Shown here in pieces: positions 11,033 to 35,740 of a DNA stretch of 46,981 bases. A program made the translations under genes and the position numbers. Each line of letters begins with the position of its first letter. Positions within the stretch are counted from its first letter, which is position 1. Source of the stretch: Kiritimatiellota bacterium (GTDB lineage Bacteria; Verrucomicrobiota; Kiritimatiellia; Kiritimatiellales; Tichowtungiaceae); the NCBI GenBank assembly GCA_014381785.1, contig JACNKZ010000036.1, positions 1-46,981 of the forward strand. Reading direction: 5' to 3'. Below the pieces are notes generated by a model. That model was not told the DNA's origin, searched no databases, and worked only from the letters and a program-made list of their open reading frames with translations.

Positions 11033-14000
11033 ATGTTTAAACCGGTATCCAGCAAAGTCGATTTCGCAGCGATGGAGGAGGGGATCCTTTCCTTCTGGAA
11101 GGAAAACGACACCTTTAAAAAATCGATTGAAAACCGCTCAGCGGACAACGAATACGTCTTTTACGACGGCCCTCCGTTCGCCACCGGTCTGCCGCACTAC
11201 GGCCATCTGCTGGCCGGAACCATTAAGGATATCGTTCCGCGCTATCAGACCATGCGAGGCCATCGCGTCGAGCGTCGTTTTGGGTGGGACTGCCACGGCC
11301 TGCCGATTGAAGCCCTCGCACAGGAAGCGCTCGGCCTGGCCGGCGCGCCCGCTATTGTCGAAGCCGGCATCGACGTCTTCAACGAGCAGTGCCGCTCCAT
11401 GGTTTCCACTTATGTTGAGGAGTGGGAAAAAACCGTCATCCGCATGGGCCGTTGGGTCGACTTTTCCAACGACTACAAAACCATGGACAAAGATTTTATG
11501 GAGACCATCTGGTGGGTGTTTTCTGAACTTTGGAAACAGGGCCGCATCTATCGCGCTCACCGTATCATGCCCTACAGCTGGAAGCTCAACACGCCGCTTT
11601 CCAACTTCGAAGCCGGGCGCAACTACCAGGACGTGCAGGACCCGTCCGTCACGGTTCGCGTAAAACTGCACGGCTTTGAAATTGAAAACGCCTGCGCGCT
11701 GGTCTGGACGACCACCCCGTGGACGCTACCGTCCAACCTCGCCATCTGCGCCGGGCCGGACATTGACTACGTCGCCGTCCGCGATACCGAGTCCGGCGAC
11801 GTGTTTGTACTGGCTGAAGCGCGCCTCAGCGCCTACTACAAAAAAGAGGAGCAGTACGAAATCCTCAAAACGATGAAGGGCTCTGACCTCGAAGGTCTCA
11901 CCTACGAGCCGCTGTTCGATTATTTCAAGGACAACGAAAACTCCTTCCGCATTTTGAACGATGCATTTGTTTCCACCGAAGACGGCTCCGGAATCGTGCA
12001 CATGGCCCCGGCGTACGGAGAGGACGACTACCGCATCTGCACCGCTGCCGGCATCCCGCTCGTTGAGCCGCTCGACGTCGACTGCAAATTCACCTCGCAG
12101 GTGCCGGACTATGAAGGGCAGTTTTGTAAAGACGCCGACAAGGAGATCATCAAACGCCTCAAGGACGAAGGCAAACTGATCCATCAGTCCACTATCCAGC
12201 ACAGCTATCCTTTCTGTGAACGCACCGACACCCCGCTCATCTACCGCGCCATCGACGCGTGGTACGTCCGCGTCGAAGACCTGCGCGAAGAAATGCTCGC
12301 CAACAACGCGCAGGTGCACTGGATGCCCGGACATGTTGGTGAAAAGCGCTTTGCCAACTGGTTGGCTGACGCCAAAGACTGGAACATTAGTCGCAACCGT
12401 TTCTGGGGTTCCTGTATTCCGCTCTGGATCAACGTTGACGATCCCGAAGATATTCTCTGCATAGGCTCCGCCGAAGAGCTGGAAAAGCTGTCCGGACAGA
12501 AAGTCGAAGACCTGCATAAACACATACTCGACGACATCCTGATCGAAAAGGACGGCAAAACCTACAAGCGCACCCCTGAAGTGCTCGACTGCTGGTTCGA
12601 GTCCGGCGCCATGCCGTACGCCCAGCAGCACTATCCTTTTGAGAACAAAGACAAATTCGAAGGCAACTTCCCGGCGCAGTTCATCGCTGAAGGGCTCGAC
12701 CAGACCCGCGGCTGGTTTTACACCCTGATGGTGCTCTCCACCGCGCTCTTCAAAAAGCCCGCCTTTCAGAACGTTGTCGTCAACGGTCTCGTGCTGGCCG
12801 AAGACGGCCTCAAAATGAGCAAGCGCCTCAAGAACTATCCCGACCCGCTGCACGTTGTGCACGAGTACGGAGCCGATGCGCTCCGCCTCTACATGATCAA
12901 CTCGCCGGTTGTGAAGGGTGAAAGCCTGCGCTTCGCCGAAGAGGGTGTGAAGCACTCCCTGCGCCACCTGCTGATCCCGCTTTGGAACTCCTATAGCTTC
13001 TTTATCACCTACGCCAACATTGATCAATGGGAGCCGGGCGACTCGAAACCCGGACAAAGCGACAACCTGCTCGATCAGTGGATTGAAAGCTCGCTGGCCA
13101 ACCTCTGTCAGGAAGTCACCGCCGCGATGGATAACTACGACCTCCAGCGCGCCGTTCGCCCGTTCGTCGCCTTCATTGAAGATTTGACCAACTGGTACAT
13201 CCGCCGCTCGCGCCGCCGTTTCTGGAAGTCCGACGACGACGGCGACAAACAGCAGGCCTACGTCACGCTCTATCATGTGTTGATCGAGCTGTGCAAAATC
13301 GCCGCGCCGTTCACGCCGTTCATCGCGGAAGAAATTTATTCCAACCTGCGCGCCGGCGACATGCCGGAGTCGGTGCACCTGTGTGACTTCCCGACCGCCG
13401 AAGGCGCGGTTCGCAACACCGAACTCGAACAGCAGATGCGTATCGTGATGGATGTGGTTGTGATGGGCCGTCAGCTCCGTAAAGACAACGATGCGAAAGT
13501 CCGCCAGCCGCTGCGCCGCCTCGACGTGGTCAGCCACGACAGCGCTTTGCTCAATCGGGTCGATGAGCTGAAAGAGATTATCGAAGAAGAGCTCAACCTC
13601 CGTGAAGTGGTTTTCGGAGATGATGAGTCCGGGTTCGCAACTCTCAGCGCCAAAGCAAACTTCAAGGCCCTCGGTCCAAAGTTTGGAAAACAGATGAAAG
13701 CGGTCGGGCAGGCGGTTGCCAATCTGGATGCCGCATCGCTTCACGCACTTGCCAACGGAGAAAACATCACGATTGATCTCAACGGTGAAGCGGCGGAAAT
13801 CGAAGCAGCGGATCTGTTTGTTGAGCACACGCCGAAAGAGGGCCTCGCGGTACAGGCGCAGGGCGATCTGGTGGTTGCGCTTGACCTCGAACTCGACGAC
13901 GATTTGATTCGCGAAGGGCTTGCCCGTGAGCTGGTCAAAGAGGTGCAGGCGCTGCGCAAAACCTCCGGCCTTGAAGTGACCGACCGCATCAATCTGAGTG

Positions 14001-20871: not shown

Positions 20872-21474
20872 ATGACGGATAATATCCTGACGATTACGAT
20901 CGGCGCGATTCTGGTTAACAATTTTGTTTTAGCGAAATTCCTAGGGATTTGCCCCTTTTTGGGGGTGTCGAAAAAGATCAAAACCGCGCTGGGCATGTCC
21001 GGTGCCGTCGTTTTTGTGATGACACTTTCTTCACTGGTGACCTCGGTAATCTATAAGTACATCCTGTCCAAAACCTTCACGGTGGCCGGAACGGAGATCA
21101 ATCTGACCTTCCTGAAGATTCTGGTGTTTATTGTGGTGATTGCCGCGCTGGTGCAGCTGGTTGAAATTATCCTTCAAAAATTCAGCCCACCGCTCTATCA
21201 GGCGCTCGGGATTTTCCTTCCGCTGATTACCACCAACTGCGCGGTGCTCGGCGCGGCCGAGCTCAGCGTGCAGGCCGGGCGCGGGGTGCTCGAGTCGACG
21301 ATCTTTGGTTTTTGTTCCGCGCTCGGGTTCGCCCTGGCGCTGATTCTGTTTTCCAGCCTGCGCGAGAAGCTGGATCTGGCTCAGGTGCCGAAACCCCTTC
21401 AGGGAACGGCGATCGGGCTGATCACCGCCGGTATTCTGGCGATGGTGTTTATGGGATTTTCCGGATTAGTTTAA
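20872..21474 (+). CDS. rnfA: Rnf electron transport complex subunit A
   Basis: Membrane subunit of the ferredoxin:NAD+ oxidoreductase (Rnf), which couples ferredoxin oxidation to Na+ or H+ export. 200 aa, six hydrophobic segments, with the conserved NNFVLAKFLGICPFLGVSKK and ITTNCAVLGAAE that carry the cysteines of the membrane-embedded iron-sulfur site shared with RnfE. GGAGGA precedes the ATG. It opens an operon in the gamma-proteobacterial order A-B-C-D-G-E, interrupted once after rnfA. Confidence 0.95.
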   Translation: MTDNILTITIGAILVNNFVLAKFLGICPFLGVSKKIKTALGMSGAVVFVMTLSSLVTSVIYKYILSKTFTVAGTEINLTFLKILVFIVVIAALVQLVEIILQKFSPPLYQALGIFLPLITTNCAVLGAAELSVQAGRGVLESTIFGFCSALGFALALILFSSLREKLDLAQVPKPLQGTAIGLITAGILAMVFMGFSGLV

Positions 21475-21553
21475 CCGGCGTTCCGCCACGAAATATGAAA
21501 TATGAAGATTTTATGTAAATTTTTATGGGAACAAATAGTTTAGAAAATCTAAA

Positions 21554-22050
21554 CCACCCGCTCATGAAATCGCTGGAGAGAACAACCGAGTTTGTGGTTG
21601 AGTTCCAAAAAAGGAAATTCGATGGATAAAGAGCTAGATCTGCCAGAAAAGATAATTGGTGCGGCAATTGAGGTTCATAACTACTGGGGGCCGGGGCTTC
21701 TGGAAAGCATTTATGAAAAAAGTCTCGCTCACGAGTTGGCGCTACGGGGAGTGAGCGTCAAACGACAGGTTCGTTTAGACCTGAAATATAAAGATCTAAT
21801 TCTAGATGATGAATTTGTTCTGGATCTGGTTGTGGAAGGAAAGGTTGTTGTCGAACTGAAAGTGGTTAAGGAGATTGCTCCGATTCATGAAGCGCAACTC
21901 ATTACCTATATGAAGTTGACGAATTGTAAGGTTGGACTTCTCATTAACTTTAATGTTTTGAAGCTGAAGGACGGGATTCGGAGAATTGTTTTGTAGAAAA
22001 CTCGGTGGTTCACTCGGCTGTTTTCTCCAGTGAACGTAGAGAACGGGTGG
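21554..22050. mobile_element. Inverted-repeat cassette with a GxxExxY gene
   Basis: The left arm (21554-21604) and right arm (21999-22050) are complementary in register. CCACCCG pairs with CGGGTGG, CTC with GAG, a 17-base block starting GGAGAGAACAACC pairs with ACTCGGCTGTTTTCTCC (one wobble, one mismatch), and GAGTT pairs with AACTC. The single gene between them fits almost exactly inside. The structure resembles intervening-sequence elements of 23S rRNA, where a long helix closes a small ORF. It separates rnfA from rnfB. Confidence 0.7.
21622..21996 (+). CDS. GxxExxY family protein
   Basis: 124 aa. Residues 5-35 carry the family name motif as GPGLLESIYEKSLAHEL, followed by a PD-(D/E)xK-like core (DLVVEGKVVVELKVVKEI) and QLITYMKLTNCKVGLLINF. 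Biochemical function is not established; the fold suggests a nuclease relative. ATG 21622 has AAGGAA seven bases upstream. Base use is more AT-rich than the flanking rnf genes, and the gene sits inside an inverted repeat, so I treat it as an acquired cassette rather than part of Rnf. Confidence 0.88.
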   Translation: MDKELDLPEKIIGAAIEVHNYWGPGLLESIYEKSLAHELALRGVSVKRQVRLDLKYKDLILDDEFVLDLVVEGKVVVELKVVKEIAPIHEAQLITYMKLTNCKVGLLINFNVLKLKDGIRRIVL

Positions 22051-22147
22051 TGGGAAAGTCGCCCGCTCCACTGAATTATACGAAGAACCAATATGAATGA
22101 TGAACTATGAAAAAGGTATTTCTCTTTAACATAAGGGCAACCACGCG

Positions 22148-22978
22148 ATGACGATTATACTGACTTCTTTGATTTTTGCGGCGCTGCTCGGCGCCATCCT
22201 CGCGGTGGTTATCGGCGCGGCGGCCAAAGCCTTTGCCGTGGAAATCGATCCGCGCATTGAAACGGTGACCGATATGCTGCCCGGCGCCAATTGCGGCGGC
22301 TGCGGCTATGCCGGTTGCGCCGATTTCGGTAAAGCCATCGTCGAAAATGGAGTTCCGCCCTCACAGTGCCCGGTTGCATCCGCTAAAGACGCCGGACGCA
22401 TCGCGGAATATCTCGGAATGAAGGCTGAGGAAAAAGAAAAAGTGATCGCGGTCGTCAAATGCAGCGGCGGCATTTCCACCACGGAGCGTTCTCCTTATAA
22501 CGGAGTCAACGACTGTCGGTCTGCGGTGCTGGTCGCCGGCGGCGCCAAGGGGTGCGACTACGGCTGCATCGGGTTCGCCAGCTGCGCGCGCGCCTGTCCG
22601 TTTGATGCCATTGAAATTCGCGACGGTCTTGCGGTGGTTCATCCGGATCTATGCGTCGGTTGCGGCAAATGCGTCGATACCTGCCCGAAGAATCTGATTG
22701 TTCTGGTTCCCGCCTCCGTGGATGTGCATGTCTACTGCAATTCGCCGGAGAAGGGGCCGGTTAAGCGTAAAGTCTGCAAAACCGCCTGTATCGCCTGCCG
22801 CAAATGCGTCAAAGCCGCGGACAACGAAGATCAGATGATCATTAAGGGATTTCTGATTGAAACCAATTATGACAACCCGCCAATTTCTGATCTGGTTGAA
22901 AAAACCGGCTGTCCCACGACTGCCCTGCGCCTGGCTTCTAAACACGCCGCCGGTGCATACGAAGGAGTTTCGAAATGA
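22148..22978 (+). CDS. rnfB: Rnf electron transport complex subunit B
   Basis: Ferredoxin-like electron entry subunit. One N-terminal membrane helix (residues 4-28), then the RnfB four-cysteine domain (NCGGCGYAGCADFG ... SQCPV), and two groups of ferredoxin-type clusters (GCIGFASCARACPFDAIEI; LCVGCGKCVDTCPKNLIVL; CIACRKCVKA). 276 aa. ATG overlaps no other gene; rnfC follows with a four-base ATGA overlap, so translation is coupled. Confidence 0.95.
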   Translation: MTIILTSLIFAALLGAILAVVIGAAAKAFAVEIDPRIETVTDMLPGANCGGCGYAGCADFGKAIVENGVPPSQCPVASAKDAGRIAEYLGMKAEEKEKVIAVVKCSGGISTTERSPYNGVNDCRSAVLVAGGAKGCDYGCIGFASCARACPFDAIEIRDGLAVVHPDLCVGCGKCVDTCPKNLIVLVPASVDVHVYCNSPEKGPVKRKVCKTACIACRKCVKAADNEDQMIIKGFLIETNYDNPPISDLVEKTGCPTTALRLASKHAAGAYEGVSK

Positions 22979-24307: not shown

Positions 24308-25312
24308 ATGTCTGAAGAAACAATAGCCTCTATTCAACTGCCGGACCCCGTCCAGCTAATTGTCAGCAACTCCCCGCATATTCGCGGAGGGGAAACGATC
24401 TCAAAAATTATGGTGCACGTTCTCGTTGCCCTGGCTCCCGCCGCGGCGGCCGCCATCTGGTTTTTCGGGTTTGCGGCGCTGCAGGTGATGGTGCTGTGCA
24501 CCGTCGGCTGTGTGGCCGTGGAGGAAATCTGGAACAAGTGCGCCGGACGTAAGCCGACCTGGAAAGACGGCAGCGCCGCGCTGACCGGTCTGTTGCTGGC
24601 CATGAACCTCTCCGCGGGCGCCCCGTGGTGGATCTGCATCCTCGGCGCGCTGCTCGCCATCGGTCTCGGTAAACAGATTTTCGGCGGTCTCGGCTTCAAC
24701 CCCTTTAATCCGGCGCTGGTCGCCCGCGTGGCGCTGCTGATCGGGTTTCCGCAGCTGATGACCTCCTGGGTGGTTCCAAACCCTGGAAACTTCGCCGCTT
24801 GCGATGCGCTGACCGGCGCTACGCCGCTGGGCGCCTCGGGAGAGGCGGTTGCCTCGCTGAGCAATCTATTCATCGGTAACGTCGGCGGCTGCCTGGGTGA
24901 AACCTCGGCGCTGGCGCTACTTATCGGCGGATTCTATCTGCTGATTAAAAAGCTGATCAAATGGCAGGTGCCCGCCGCCTTTATCGGAACCGTCGCGCTG
25001 ATCAGTGCAGTGGTCCATCACTTTAATCCAGACCTGACCCAGCCCGCGCTCTACCACATCCTCGCCGGCGGCCTGCTGATCGGCGCCTTCTTTATGGCCA
25101 CTGACATGGTCACCTCTCCGATGACCGCCAACGGCGCGCTGATCTTTGGTTTCGGGTGCGGACTCATCACCAGCGTGATCCGCATCTGGGGCGGCTACCC
25201 CGAAGGCGTCAGTTTTTCCATCCTCTTTATGAATGCGCTCACGCCTTTGATCGACCGGTCCACCATCGGTAAACCGTTCGGCTACATCCGCATTAAAAAG
25301 GAAAAAGACTAA
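24308..25312 (+). CDS. rnfD: Rnf electron transport complex subunit D
   Basis: Polytopic membrane subunit carrying a covalent FMN. 334 aa. The flavinylation motif is ALTGATPLG, with Thr as the expected attachment site, in the typical place between membrane helices. GGLGFNPFNPALVARVALL and DMVTSPMTANGALIFG are further family signatures. Start at ATG 24308, four bases after the rnfC stop. ApbE, encoded 3.5 kb away, would attach the FMN. The stop codon touches an 18-base inverted repeat. Confidence 0.95.
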   Translation: MSEETIASIQLPDPVQLIVSNSPHIRGGETISKIMVHVLVALAPAAAAAIWFFGFAALQVMVLCTVGCVAVEEIWNKCAGRKPTWKDGSAALTGLLLAMNLSAGAPWWICILGALLAIGLGKQIFGGLGFNPFNPALVARVALLIGFPQLMTSWVVPNPGNFAACDALTGATPLGASGEAVASLSNLFIGNVGGCLGETSALALLIGGFYLLIKKLIKWQVPAAFIGTVALISAVVHHFNPDLTQPALYHILAGGLLIGAFFMATDMVTSPMTANGALIFGFGCGLITSVIRIWGGYPEGVSFSILFMNALTPLIDRSTIGKPFGYIRIKKEKD

Positions 25313-25393
25313 ACCACGAAATACACAAACCACACGAAAACGAATGCACCGCTTTCTTTCTCCTCTTTTGTGTATTTTGTGTATTTCGTGGTT
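25312..25393. repeat. 18-bp perfect inverted repeat, rnfD-rnfG spacer
   Basis: AACCACGAAATACACAAA (25312-25329) and its exact complement (25376-25393) around 46 bases. It starts in the rnfD stop codon and ends 20 bases before the rnfG start. The AACCACGAA end matches the units at 20344. Confidence 0.85.
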
Positions 25394-28327: not shown

Positions 28328-28354
28328 GTATATATATCATATAATGATATATAC
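28328..28354. promoter_or_regulatory. Palindromic operator downstream of padR
   Basis: 27 bases: GTATATATATCAT, ATA, ATGATATATAC. It lies just past the padR stop and about 100 bases upstream of the DUF362 start on the same strand. Identical to the site at 28704 except for the three central bases. Confidence 0.65.
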
Positions 28355-28355
28355 G

Positions 28356-28700
28356 TTATGTTTTGCAGTTTTTGAGGAGGCGGTTAATGCCGCCGGAGAA
28401 TTTTTCCCACTTCAGGGCGCGAACTTTCAACTCGGTTGCCCCCCTGGAGGTAATCCGGTAGACCTTTCGTTCGCGGTTTTTGCAGACGATTTCTGTGCGG
28501 CTTTTCAGCCAGCCCGTTTTTTCCATCCATGCGAGCAGGGGATAGAGGCGCCCGAAAGATGGATGCACGGTTCGGTTTGAAAGATCGGCCAATTCCTGCC
28601 GGATGCGATAGCCGTGCATTGGACCCCGGTCATTGAGTAGCGCCAGGATCAGCATCTCCGTATGACCCTTCACCATTTCTCCGTCAATACTGCGTTTCAT
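28356..28700 (-). CDS. PadR-family transcriptional regulator
   Basis: 114 aa winged-helix repressor. MVKGHTEMLILALLNDRGPM, HGYRIRQEL, HPSFGRLYPLLAWMEKTGWL and KVYRITSRGATEL follow the PadR N-terminal domain closely; the extra C-terminal helical domain of PadR-s2 members is absent. The start codon is three bases from a 27-base palindrome, leaving no Shine-Dalgarno; an internal GTG at 28673 after GGAG is an alternative. It probably represses itself and one or both neighbours (DUF362, apbE). The ligand is unknown. Confidence 0.9.
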   Translation of the reverse strand: MKRSIDGEMVKGHTEMLILALLNDRGPMHGYRIRQELADLSNRTVHPSFGRLYPLLAWMEKTGWLKSRTEIVCKNRERKVYRITSRGATELKVRALKWEKFSGGINRLLKNCKT

Positions 28701-28703
28701 GCG

Positions 28704-28730
28704 GTATATATATCATTATATGATATATAC
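28704..28730. promoter_or_regulatory. Palindromic operator between padR and apbE
   Basis: 27 bases: GTATATATATCAT, TAT, ATGATATATAC, immediately upstream of padR and 73 bases before apbE in the divergent direction. Near-identical to 28328-28354. Confidence 0.7.
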
Positions 28731-28803
28731 ACAAGTTCCGTTAAAAATGGGTTGTTTTGATGATTTTACCTTTAAATGATTTTGTAACCGGCCCTCGCTG
28801 TTT

Positions 28804-30182: not shown

Positions 30183-33100
30183 ATGGCAACAACCATCCAG
30201 ATTAAAGGCATTGTGCAGGGCGTCGGTTTCCGCCCGCACGTCTGGAAGCTGGCAACCGGCCTCGGCCTGACCGGCTTCGTTCGCAACGATTCCGATGGCG
30301 TAACCATAAGGATAGAAGAAGGCGATGCCGAACGCTTCATTGAGGAGTTGAAATCCAACCCGCCGCCGCTTTCCAAAATCACGGAAATCATCACCTTTAT
30401 TGAACCGCGAATGAATCCTCCTTCGCCAAAGGCTTCGGCGGGACAGGCTACGAATGAACGGGAAGAGGGTTTTAGAATTGTGGAAAGCGAGGAGGGTGCG
30501 GAGAAGAGCGTTCAGATTTCACCGGACATCTCAATCTGTGAGGACTGCCTGCGCGAGCTCTTTGATCCTGCCGACCGCCGTCATGGCTATCCATTTATCA
30601 ACTGCGTCAACTGCGGCCCGCGCTACTCGATCATCAACGCGCTGCCGTACGACCGCCCCAATACCAGCATGGCGGAGTTCGAACTTTGCTCCGACTGCGC
30701 GGCCGAGTATGCCGATCCCGCCGACCGCCGCTACCACGCTCAGCCGGTTGCCTGTCCTGCCTGCGGTCCGAAACTGTGGTTTTATGAGAAACCATACCTT
30801 GCAAGGTATGGTTTAAGTGGCCCGGCGGACTCCACCTTTTGGACTATACATTGGAAGGAATCCATTGAGGCCGGGAAGATTGTGGCGGTTAAAGGAATCG
30901 GCGGCTTTCATCTGGCCTGCGACGCGCTCAACGCGGAGGCGGTTGCCGAGCTGCGGCGCCGCAAGGCGCGCGAAAACAAACCCTTCGCGCTGATGGTGCC
31001 GGATCTCGACTGGGTCAAACAGACTTGTGAGCTATCCGCTGCCGAAGAAAAACTGCTCACCTCCCGCGAGCGGCCGATTGTGGTGCTGCGCATCAAAAAA
31101 AGTACCGCCTCCGGCGGCATAAATCTCCAAGGTTTGTCGCGCCCAGAGGTTGCTGCTTCGCATTCGCGAAGCCTCTTCCGCTCCGCTCCAGTGGAAAATA
31201 TTGCTCCGAACCTCAATACACTCGGTGTCATGCTGCCGTACACGCCGATGCACCATCTCATGTTCGACGCGGTCAAGCGCCCGCTGGTGATGACCAGCGC
31301 CAATTATTCGTCCGAGCCGATGATTCACACCAACGAGGATGCGCTCAAAACGCTCAACGGTCTCGCCGATGAGTTTCTGCTGCACGACCGCGACATCGTT
31401 AACCGCTGCGACGACTCCGTCTGCGCGGTCTACGGCGGCCAGACCATTATCCTGCGCCCCGGCCGCGGCATGGGTCCAGTTTCGTTTCCCTTTTCTTCTA
31501 TAGGCAGGCGGGACGCCTGCGATACGGACGAACAGGGCAGGCGGGACGCCCGCGATACGGTACCGCAGGCGTCCCGCCTGCCTTCGTTTAACCCCGTGCT
31601 AGACGTTCAACAGTCGCGCCGAAAAAACCTGCCGCACTGGACGCAGGAGCGCAGTACCTATTTTGTTACGTTTCGATTGTCTGATTCCATTGCTCAATCC
31701 CGAATTAGTGAATACAGAGAGTTAAGAGAAAAGTGGCAAGAGTATCATCAGCCTCCGTACAGCGAACAAGAGCAGGATCAATTCGACACGCTATTCTCTA
31801 TGCGTGTTAATAATTGGCTCGATGAGGGGGCTGGCTCATGCATTCTTCATAAGCCGGGTGTTGCAAAAATCGTTGCTGACGCATTGCTCCATTTTAACGA
31901 GCAACGCTATGTGCTAAACGAGTGGGTCATTATGCCAAATCACGTACATGTGTTGGTAGCACCGCTGCCCGGCTATGAACTGGCTTCGATTTTGCATTCA
32001 TGGAAATCTCTTTCGGCGCACAAAATCAATGAGCACCTTGATGGAAATGGATCTGTTTGGAAGCAGGAAAGTTATGATCACATCGTGCGTGATCAGGAAG
32101 AGTTGAACCGGATTCGAGAGTATATTCGAAGCAACCCCCGTAAAGCAGGGGTCACGGCATTGCAAGGCAGGCGGGACGCCTGCGATACGGACGAACAGGG
32201 CAGGCGGGACGCCTGCGATATGGTACCGCAGGCGTCCCGCCTGCCTTGTTGCGTTGTCGGAATCGGTGCCGATATGAAAAACACCTTTGCGGTGGCGCAC
32301 AACGGATGGATCACGCTTTCACCTTATATAGGCGACCTCGAAAATCCGGAGACGCAGGAAATCCTCAAGACGGGTGTGCAGCGTTATCTCGAATGCTTCG
32401 ACTTGAAGCCGGAATTGATCGTGCATGATTTACACCCCGACTACTTTTCGACCCACATCGCAAAACAGTTTTCCGAAGTTCGGAAACCGGTGCAGCATCA
32501 CCACGCGCACTGCATTGCGGCGGCGGTGGAGCATGGCATCGCGGGCCGCGCTATGGGCGTGGCGTTTGACGGCACCGGCTACGGCAGCGACGGCACCATC
32601 TGGGGCGGAGAGATCCTGGAGTTCGATGCGCAGTCATTTGAACGCAAATTCCATCTGCGGCCGTTCGCGCTGCCCGGCGGCGAAAGGGCGGTCAAAGAAC
32701 CGAAGCGCACGCTCATATCCGTTCTCTCAAGTTTCCAATGTTTGGAAAAAATCGAAGCGGATTTTCCAAACCTTGGAAAAAATGTGCTGACGCAGATTGA
32801 GAGCGGCATTAACTGCCCGATGACGTCGAGCATGGGGCGGCTGTTTGATGCGGCGGCGGTTCTGCTCGGTGCCTGCGAAACACCGACCTTTGACGGCGAG
32901 GGGCCGATGCGCCTTGAGGCGATGGCCGATTTAAATGAGCAGGGCGCACTTCCGTTTGCCATCCATGATGGTGTGATTGATTGGATTCCCCTGTTTGAAG
33001 AGCTAATCAATCGACAATCGGCAATCGGTAATCGGCAATTATCGGCTCAATTCCACAACACGATCGTCGAAATCGTTTTCCAATGCTTAGAAAAACTGGA

Positions 33101-34171: not shown

Positions 34172-34475
34172 TTTTGACAGGATAACAGGATGTGCAGGAT
34201 AAAGAAAACAACCAGACTGAAGCAAAGCGGAGATACACAAACCCGTTTGTATTGCGCCGCTTCAACTCAGTCAATGCTCAGTCTCGACGGAGCGGATGTG
34301 CAGCAGCCTGTTTTCTCCCTTTTGAACTGCGAAGCTTTAGCGAAGTATGTTTTATGTTTTCTTGTGCTTTTGAACCGTTTCCGGAGGAAACTATTTTGCA
34401 GGCAAAATTATTTATCGCTTCGCTTTCAGGTGGCTAACTCTCTTCCATCCCTTCAATCCTGTTATCCTGTCAAAA
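34172..34475. repeat. AACAGGAT-ended element, hypC-hypD spacer
   Basis: Perfect 20-base inverted ends TTTTGACAGGATAACAGGAT (34172-34191) and its complement (34456-34475), 304 bases in all. I see no gene inside. It occupies nearly the whole spacer, and its right end is 13 bases before the hypD start. Confidence 0.75.
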
Positions 34476-35597: not shown

Positions 35598-35740
35598 TTT
35601 TAGACAGGATAACAGGATGAACATGATTCTCATTAGGTTGATCAAGATGTCTGTTTCGGGCAGGCAGGACGCCTGCGGTACGTATCGCAGGCGTCCCGCC
35701 TGCCTTGCCATATCCGGAACATCCTGTTATCCCGTCAAAA
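35598..35740. repeat. AACAGGAT-ended element with REP pair, hypD-hypE spacer
   Basis: Left end is TTTAGACAGGATAACAGGAT-like (35598-35618) and right end ATCCTGTTATCCCGTCAAAA (35721-35740). A REP palindrome pair at 35660-35703 lies inside, identical to that at 2498-2542 except for one base. It begins three bases after the hypD stop. Confidence 0.75.
35660..35703. repeat. REP palindrome pair
   Basis: GCAGGCAGGACGCCTGC and inverted partner GCAGGCGTCCCGCCTGC, nested in the AACAGGAT-ended element. Confidence 0.85.

Follow-up and report, generated by a model that had tools for sequence, protein, structure and literature searches.

A GxxExxY gene enclosed by complementary arms between rnfA and rnfB: very probably one copy of a mobile single-gene cassette

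The window, the whole 46,981-nt stretch of Kiritimatiellota DNA that was analysed, contains a respiration operon, rnf, in which a small gene lies between rnfA (20872–21474, conserved in relatives) and rnfB (22148–22978), all three on the forward strand. The gene belongs to a 500-nt unit (21552–22051, forward strand), whose parts follow one another in the order left arm, ribosome-binding site, GxxExxY gene and right arm. The left arm (21552–21601) pairs with the right arm (21998–22051) in the RNA fold, and both are read on the forward strand. The loop between them holds an RBS-like AAGGAAA (21611–21617) and the gene (21622–21996), and nothing else; no promoter-like site was found within the cassette on the gene strand. 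Translation is likely to start at ATG 21622, with GGA 6 nt upstream, and the stop codon TAG (21994–21996) stands immediately before the right arm, as the first-pass annotation had noted. Outside the unit, AATATGAA-type repeats fill the left flank (21475–21551), which resembles a 73-nt gene-less junction in the same-genus genome G008, and ATGATGAA-type repeats fill the right flank (22052–22147).

The pairing of the two ends, first seen by reading the sequence, proved to be real in both the fold and the shuffled controls; its outer stem was computed as blocks of 7, 3, 3 and 15 bp, and not 7, 3, 17 and 5 bp as originally given. When positions 21554–22050 are folded as RNA, this stem and further inner helices close the unit (z = −3.4; none of 100 shuffles folds equally well), in line with the earlier description of a cassette closed in a hairpin. 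The ungapped core of the arms (21570–21591 with 22012–22033) comprises 22 nt at 86% complementarity and scores 14.5, a value reached by none of 5000 shuffles of both flanks (maximum 12). The fold, the core and the shuffles thus place the arms beyond chance. The outer ends, 21552 and 22051, were set by comparison with a sister copy and lie within 2 bases of 21554 and 22050.

GxxExxY proteins take their name from a motif alone. The assignment of the 124-residue product to this family held up, since the gene matches TIGR04256 (E = 8e-44, 148.8 bits against a curated cut-off of 35) and PF13366 (E = 5e-43, 146.5 bits against 22). Only PF13366 matches it, and neither PF05635 nor PF01797 does. The PD-(D/E)XK motif is intact, with D68, E78 and K80 invariant among the sequences of 16 relatives, and the protein belongs to the PD-(D/E)XK superfamily and is a predicted nuclease. 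A sequence search against solved structures gave nothing usable, and a defence-system library returned only weak matches to Cas4 and Cas11.

The closest copy of the unit, L065, is found in another species (genome G007), between genes that were read from the sequence as nfnA and nfnB. It is 88% identical across 21552–22051, and the homology ends at the outer ends of both arms. The rnfA-rnfB gap of G007 itself is 18 nt. The expected empty site is indeed present in relatives: the gap measures 1–19 nt in 10 of 12 other same-genus genomes, the exceptions being G008 (73 nt) and G011 (183 nt), which carry gene-less repeats. No cassette occupies the nfnA-nfnB junction of the window genome (G000), G003, G005, G008 and G009, with gaps of 6 nt in G005, 8 nt in G009 and −2 nt in G003; G001 holds a 39-nt arm-like remnant there and G004 a 94-nt gene-less hairpin. 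Both sites are empty in most relatives. Judged by its anatomy alone, the rnfA-rnfB unit is very probably one copy of a mobile single-gene cassette. Complementarity not conserved in the arms of other copies, or a gene fixed at this place with unrelated flanks, would have spoken against the first-pass reading; both were checked, and neither proved to be the case.

Other operon junctions turn over in their cassette content. At the exbD1-exbD2 junction, the window genome carries a GxxExxY cassette, G010, G018 and G020 each have a four-helix-bundle one, G009 shows a gene-less hairpin and G005 a decayed GxxExxY cassette; in others the gap is short. The gltB-gltD junction is occupied in the window genome and four relatives and measures 17 nt in the nearest relative, G010. 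Such differences between species also fit long-term gain, loss and horizontal exchange. Two sites with remains were seen as well. The 357-nt gltB-gltD junction of G001 (L225) is gene-less and looks like a collection of remnants of several arm types. At 13460–13580 of locus L097, downstream of an aspartase-like gene, a left arm survives as a relic together with a gene-less hairpin; at the same position a relative, G002 (L071), carries a complete GxxExxY cassette.

The window genome (2.2 Mb, 98% complete) contains 12 GxxExxY-domain matches, and same-genus genomes contain 2–16. Complementary arms at GxxExxY genes other than this one, predicted from the single locus, were found in quantity. At a score of 13 or more, a threshold reached by 0.2% of random intervals, they flank 29 of 37 distinct GxxExxY genes in the window genome and its relatives when the window copy is counted once (30 of 38 when it is counted twice). 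They also flank 24 of 38 four-helix-bundle genes from the same genomes. The longer GxxExxY proteins have arms in three of three cases tested, and four loci (L008, L009, L010 and L011) encode GxxExxY-domain proteins of 254–266 residues enclosed by arms of other sequence types. Of 303 ORFs tested in 444 kb of stretches that served as the genome background, 18 lie between arms; six GxxExxY-domain genes, two four-helix-bundle genes and two Y1 transposase genes are among them.

The architecture extends far beyond the genus. In a cross-phylum sample of one genome per species, obtained with a closer query alignment than the diverse one of 16 sequences and including archaea (Methanothrix, Methanosarcinales), arms were detected at 49 of 80 GxxExxY loci against 0.67% of control intervals from the same loci. 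Distant four-helix-bundle genes, taken from the genomes of 26 of the cross-phylum GxxExxY loci, had arms in 22 of 30 cases tested. Arms are undetectable in about 20–40% of copies. Cultured carriers of cassettes include the named strains Gelidibacter pelagius, Stieleria tagensis and Mucilaginibacter psychrotolerans. Six plasmid records carry GxxExxY genes. The four-helix-bundle cassettes, which encode the protein of 23S rRNA intervening sequences (IVS; PF05635), have the same architecture and occur as sister cassettes in the window genome too. The hairpin cassettes form a large and apparently undescribed family in many bacterial phyla and some archaea. No open paper describing GxxExxY or four-helix-bundle cassettes was found, nor did the arm sequences appear in the text of open papers; the novelty is provisional, as preprints and most subscription journals lay outside the scope of the search.

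The arms and the gene are inherited as one unit. The median arm score is 20 within an element and 8 between elements, and arm similarity tracks protein identity (Mantel r = 0.61 for GxxExxY and 0.56 for four-helix-bundle cassettes; 0 of 2000 permutations each), which indicates that the arms travel with the gene and not with the locus. In class relatives, the repeat unit of the arms is 7 nt long in four-helix-bundle cassettes (best lag 7 or 14 in 26 of 28) and 8–10 nt long in GxxExxY cassettes (23 of 30, and none of the 30 at 7 or 14), a link between period and protein with a Fisher p of 2e-14. It is weaker in distant genomes, where 15 of 24 four-helix-bundle arms have a period of 7 or 14 nt. 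In four species the orthologous gltB-gltD cassettes carry an AGGCTTT-type 7-nt unit; in G008 both arms have the AGGCCTG type instead, and comparison of L001 with L071 shows the same base change in both arms. Such co-inheritance is also expected if other machinery moves the unit.

The cassettes sit snugly in operon junctions, mostly in sense orientation. The left arm follows the stop codon of the upstream gene at a median of 2–7 nt, and the cassette gene is sense to its co-directional neighbours in 69 cases and antisense in 7 (p = 6e-14; neighbouring genes called by a simple ORF rule). The sense bias can be explained by a promoterless cassette in need of host transcription; an RNA role would fit too. 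Target-site duplications were not found, the flanking repeats being not meaningfully longer than in controls, so that the junctions carry no integration signature. A conserved 23S motif was absent from all 272 fetched loci, and hence no cassette was seen in rRNA.

Gene-less forms and other repeats accompany the cassettes. Within the window, an 82-nt gene-less hairpin with GxxExxY-type arms (AACCACGAAATACAC) lies between rnfD and rnfG (25312–25393; fold z about −8) as a related repeat and a separate unit. Gene-less hairpins with cassette arm types occur elsewhere too, L105 and L102 having the arms of L008. REP-like palindromes (GGCAGGCGGGACGCCTGCGATAC) surround a partial Y1_Tnp match (31899–32132) at 31502–32250, and the palindrome recurs at 2498–2541, at 35659–35704 and elsewhere in the genome. 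On both sides of hypD, at 34172–34475 and 35598–35740, lie GACAGGATAACAGGAT-type inverted repeats with no cassette gene, and a PadR-like regulator gene (28328–28732) lies between 26-nt AT-rich inverted repeats.

We propose that these units are probably selfish, promoterless, single-gene mobile cassettes, whose protein acts on the hairpin of its own arms and whose cutting by a host ribonuclease makes the insert tolerable. The cassette would be transcribed together with the host operon. The encoded protein, the PD-(D/E)XK GxxExxY protein or the four-helix bundle in the sister family, would recognise the hairpin of its own arms, be it in single-stranded DNA, in a cruciform or in RNA, and would assist its own unit in being copied or in entering another junction. 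At the RNA level, the hairpin probably allows RNase III-type host ribonucleases to excise the insert from the operon transcript, which would limit the harm, as in the 23S rRNA IVS. Self-mobility by the GxxExxY protein, which the first-pass annotation had raised, is plausible.

An RNA-borne element, in which RNase III cuts the hairpin out of the operon mRNA and the RNA is the mobile form that is reverse-transcribed back, seems unlikely. It would suit the sense orientation in operons, the stable RNA hairpin and the precedent of the Coxiella 23S IVS, whose 28-bp stem RNase III cleaves (PMC4990558), and one four-helix-bundle relative resembles, below the cut-off, the protein Avd of diversity-generating retroelements. 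Against it, no reverse transcriptase (RVT_1) was found in the 98% complete window genome, an absence that also speaks against a retroelement such as a diversity-generating retroelement or a group II intron. The mismatches within the arms show no sense-strand G-U excess either (69 G-U to 55 A-C in GxxExxY copies, p = 0.24; 59 to 66 in four-helix-bundle copies), so that RNA-level selection is not seen. The suggestion that RNA is the mobile or processed form has found no support so far. The sense orientation fits a promoterless cassette equally; cutting of the transcript with no RNA mobility is possible.

Less probable again is movement in trans as single-stranded hairpin DNA, for instance by Y1 (HUH, RAYT-like) transposases, with the GxxExxY protein having another job. 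The window genome has eight Y1_Tnp matches, target-site duplications are lacking as in HUH transposition, and the gene-less hairpins with the same arms imply that the gene is sometimes dispensable in cis. However, a trans-acting enzyme would be expected to need shared ends, whereas the arms differ and track the cassette's own protein, and the two Y1 genes found between arms have other arm sequences. A classical transposon or MITE was rejected, there being no shared terminal inverted repeats (the between-element median of 8 against 20 within) and no target-site duplication, as was REP/RAYT membership, the cassette gene being PF13366 and not PF01797. That the gene is an ordinary host gene with arms that are locus-bound repeats or terminators is very improbable: the cassettes point the same way as the operon genes, and the window genome is rich in intergenic inverted repeats, but the reading is already contradicted by sister copies that have common arms in different operons and lose homology just where the arms end; in addition, relatives have empty sites, the arms follow protein phylogeny, and such arms are rare at other ORFs of the genome.

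Beyond the single copy, the selfish cassettes favoured here might represent a class of mobile elements across bacterial phyla and archaea, in which one small protein moves the hairpin of its own arms into junctions, the arm architecture is matched to the protein, and the 23S rRNA IVS are members that landed in rRNA genes. We hold this broader view tentatively, at somewhat short of even confidence. That GxxExxY and S23p proteins share one kind of cassette, present several times per genome and in different phyla, points to one testable role for both families. The cassettes may account for some of the short tandem and inverted repeats seen between genes, and they show a kind of insert that is tolerated between operon genes. 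If the 124-residue protein and two arms suffice, the units would be among the smallest mobile units known.

The closest known kind is the 23S rRNA IVS. That of Coxiella burnetii is 428 nt long, encodes S23p and has a 28-bp stem that RNase III cleaves; what S23p and the IVS do and where they come from has been called unclear (PMC4990558). The IVS and the cassette are alike in length (about 430–500 nt), in ends that are complementary over some 28 bp or more and in a single small ORF that fills the loop, and the IVS has likewise been described as a selfish element. Its S23p (PF05635) is the family encoded by the sister cassettes. Unlike an IVS, the window cassette is placed between the protein-coding genes of an operon and encodes an unrelated PD-(D/E)XK protein; being outside rRNA and having no S23p, it is not a member. 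The likeness to IVS drawn in the first-pass annotation is nevertheless apt and the anatomy the same, since the IVS-protein genes of the same genome, in their four-helix-bundle cassettes, share the architecture. REP/RAYT elements and MITEs are also short intergenic hairpins in many copies, with gene-less and gene-bearing forms. In contrast to these, the GxxExxY protein is no HUH transposase, and the cassette arms differ between copies within a genome, measure 20–70 nt, enclose a gene and leave no target-site duplication. Avd of diversity-generating retroelements is related to the sister cassettes through its four-helix bundle (NF033474, E = 1.6e-8, a match that falls short of the cut-off), whereas no reverse transcriptase occurs here and the window cassette encodes no four-helix bundle. 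The GGGAATC heptamer repeats of Xanthomonas, which form 70–75 convergent inverted pairs and were reported as not associated with mobile elements (PMC4692102), and the cyanobacterial STRR are 7-nt intergenic repeats, as are the four-helix-bundle arms, although the reports link them to no gene or mobile unit. The Xanthomonas heptamer repeats may be related to the cassettes.
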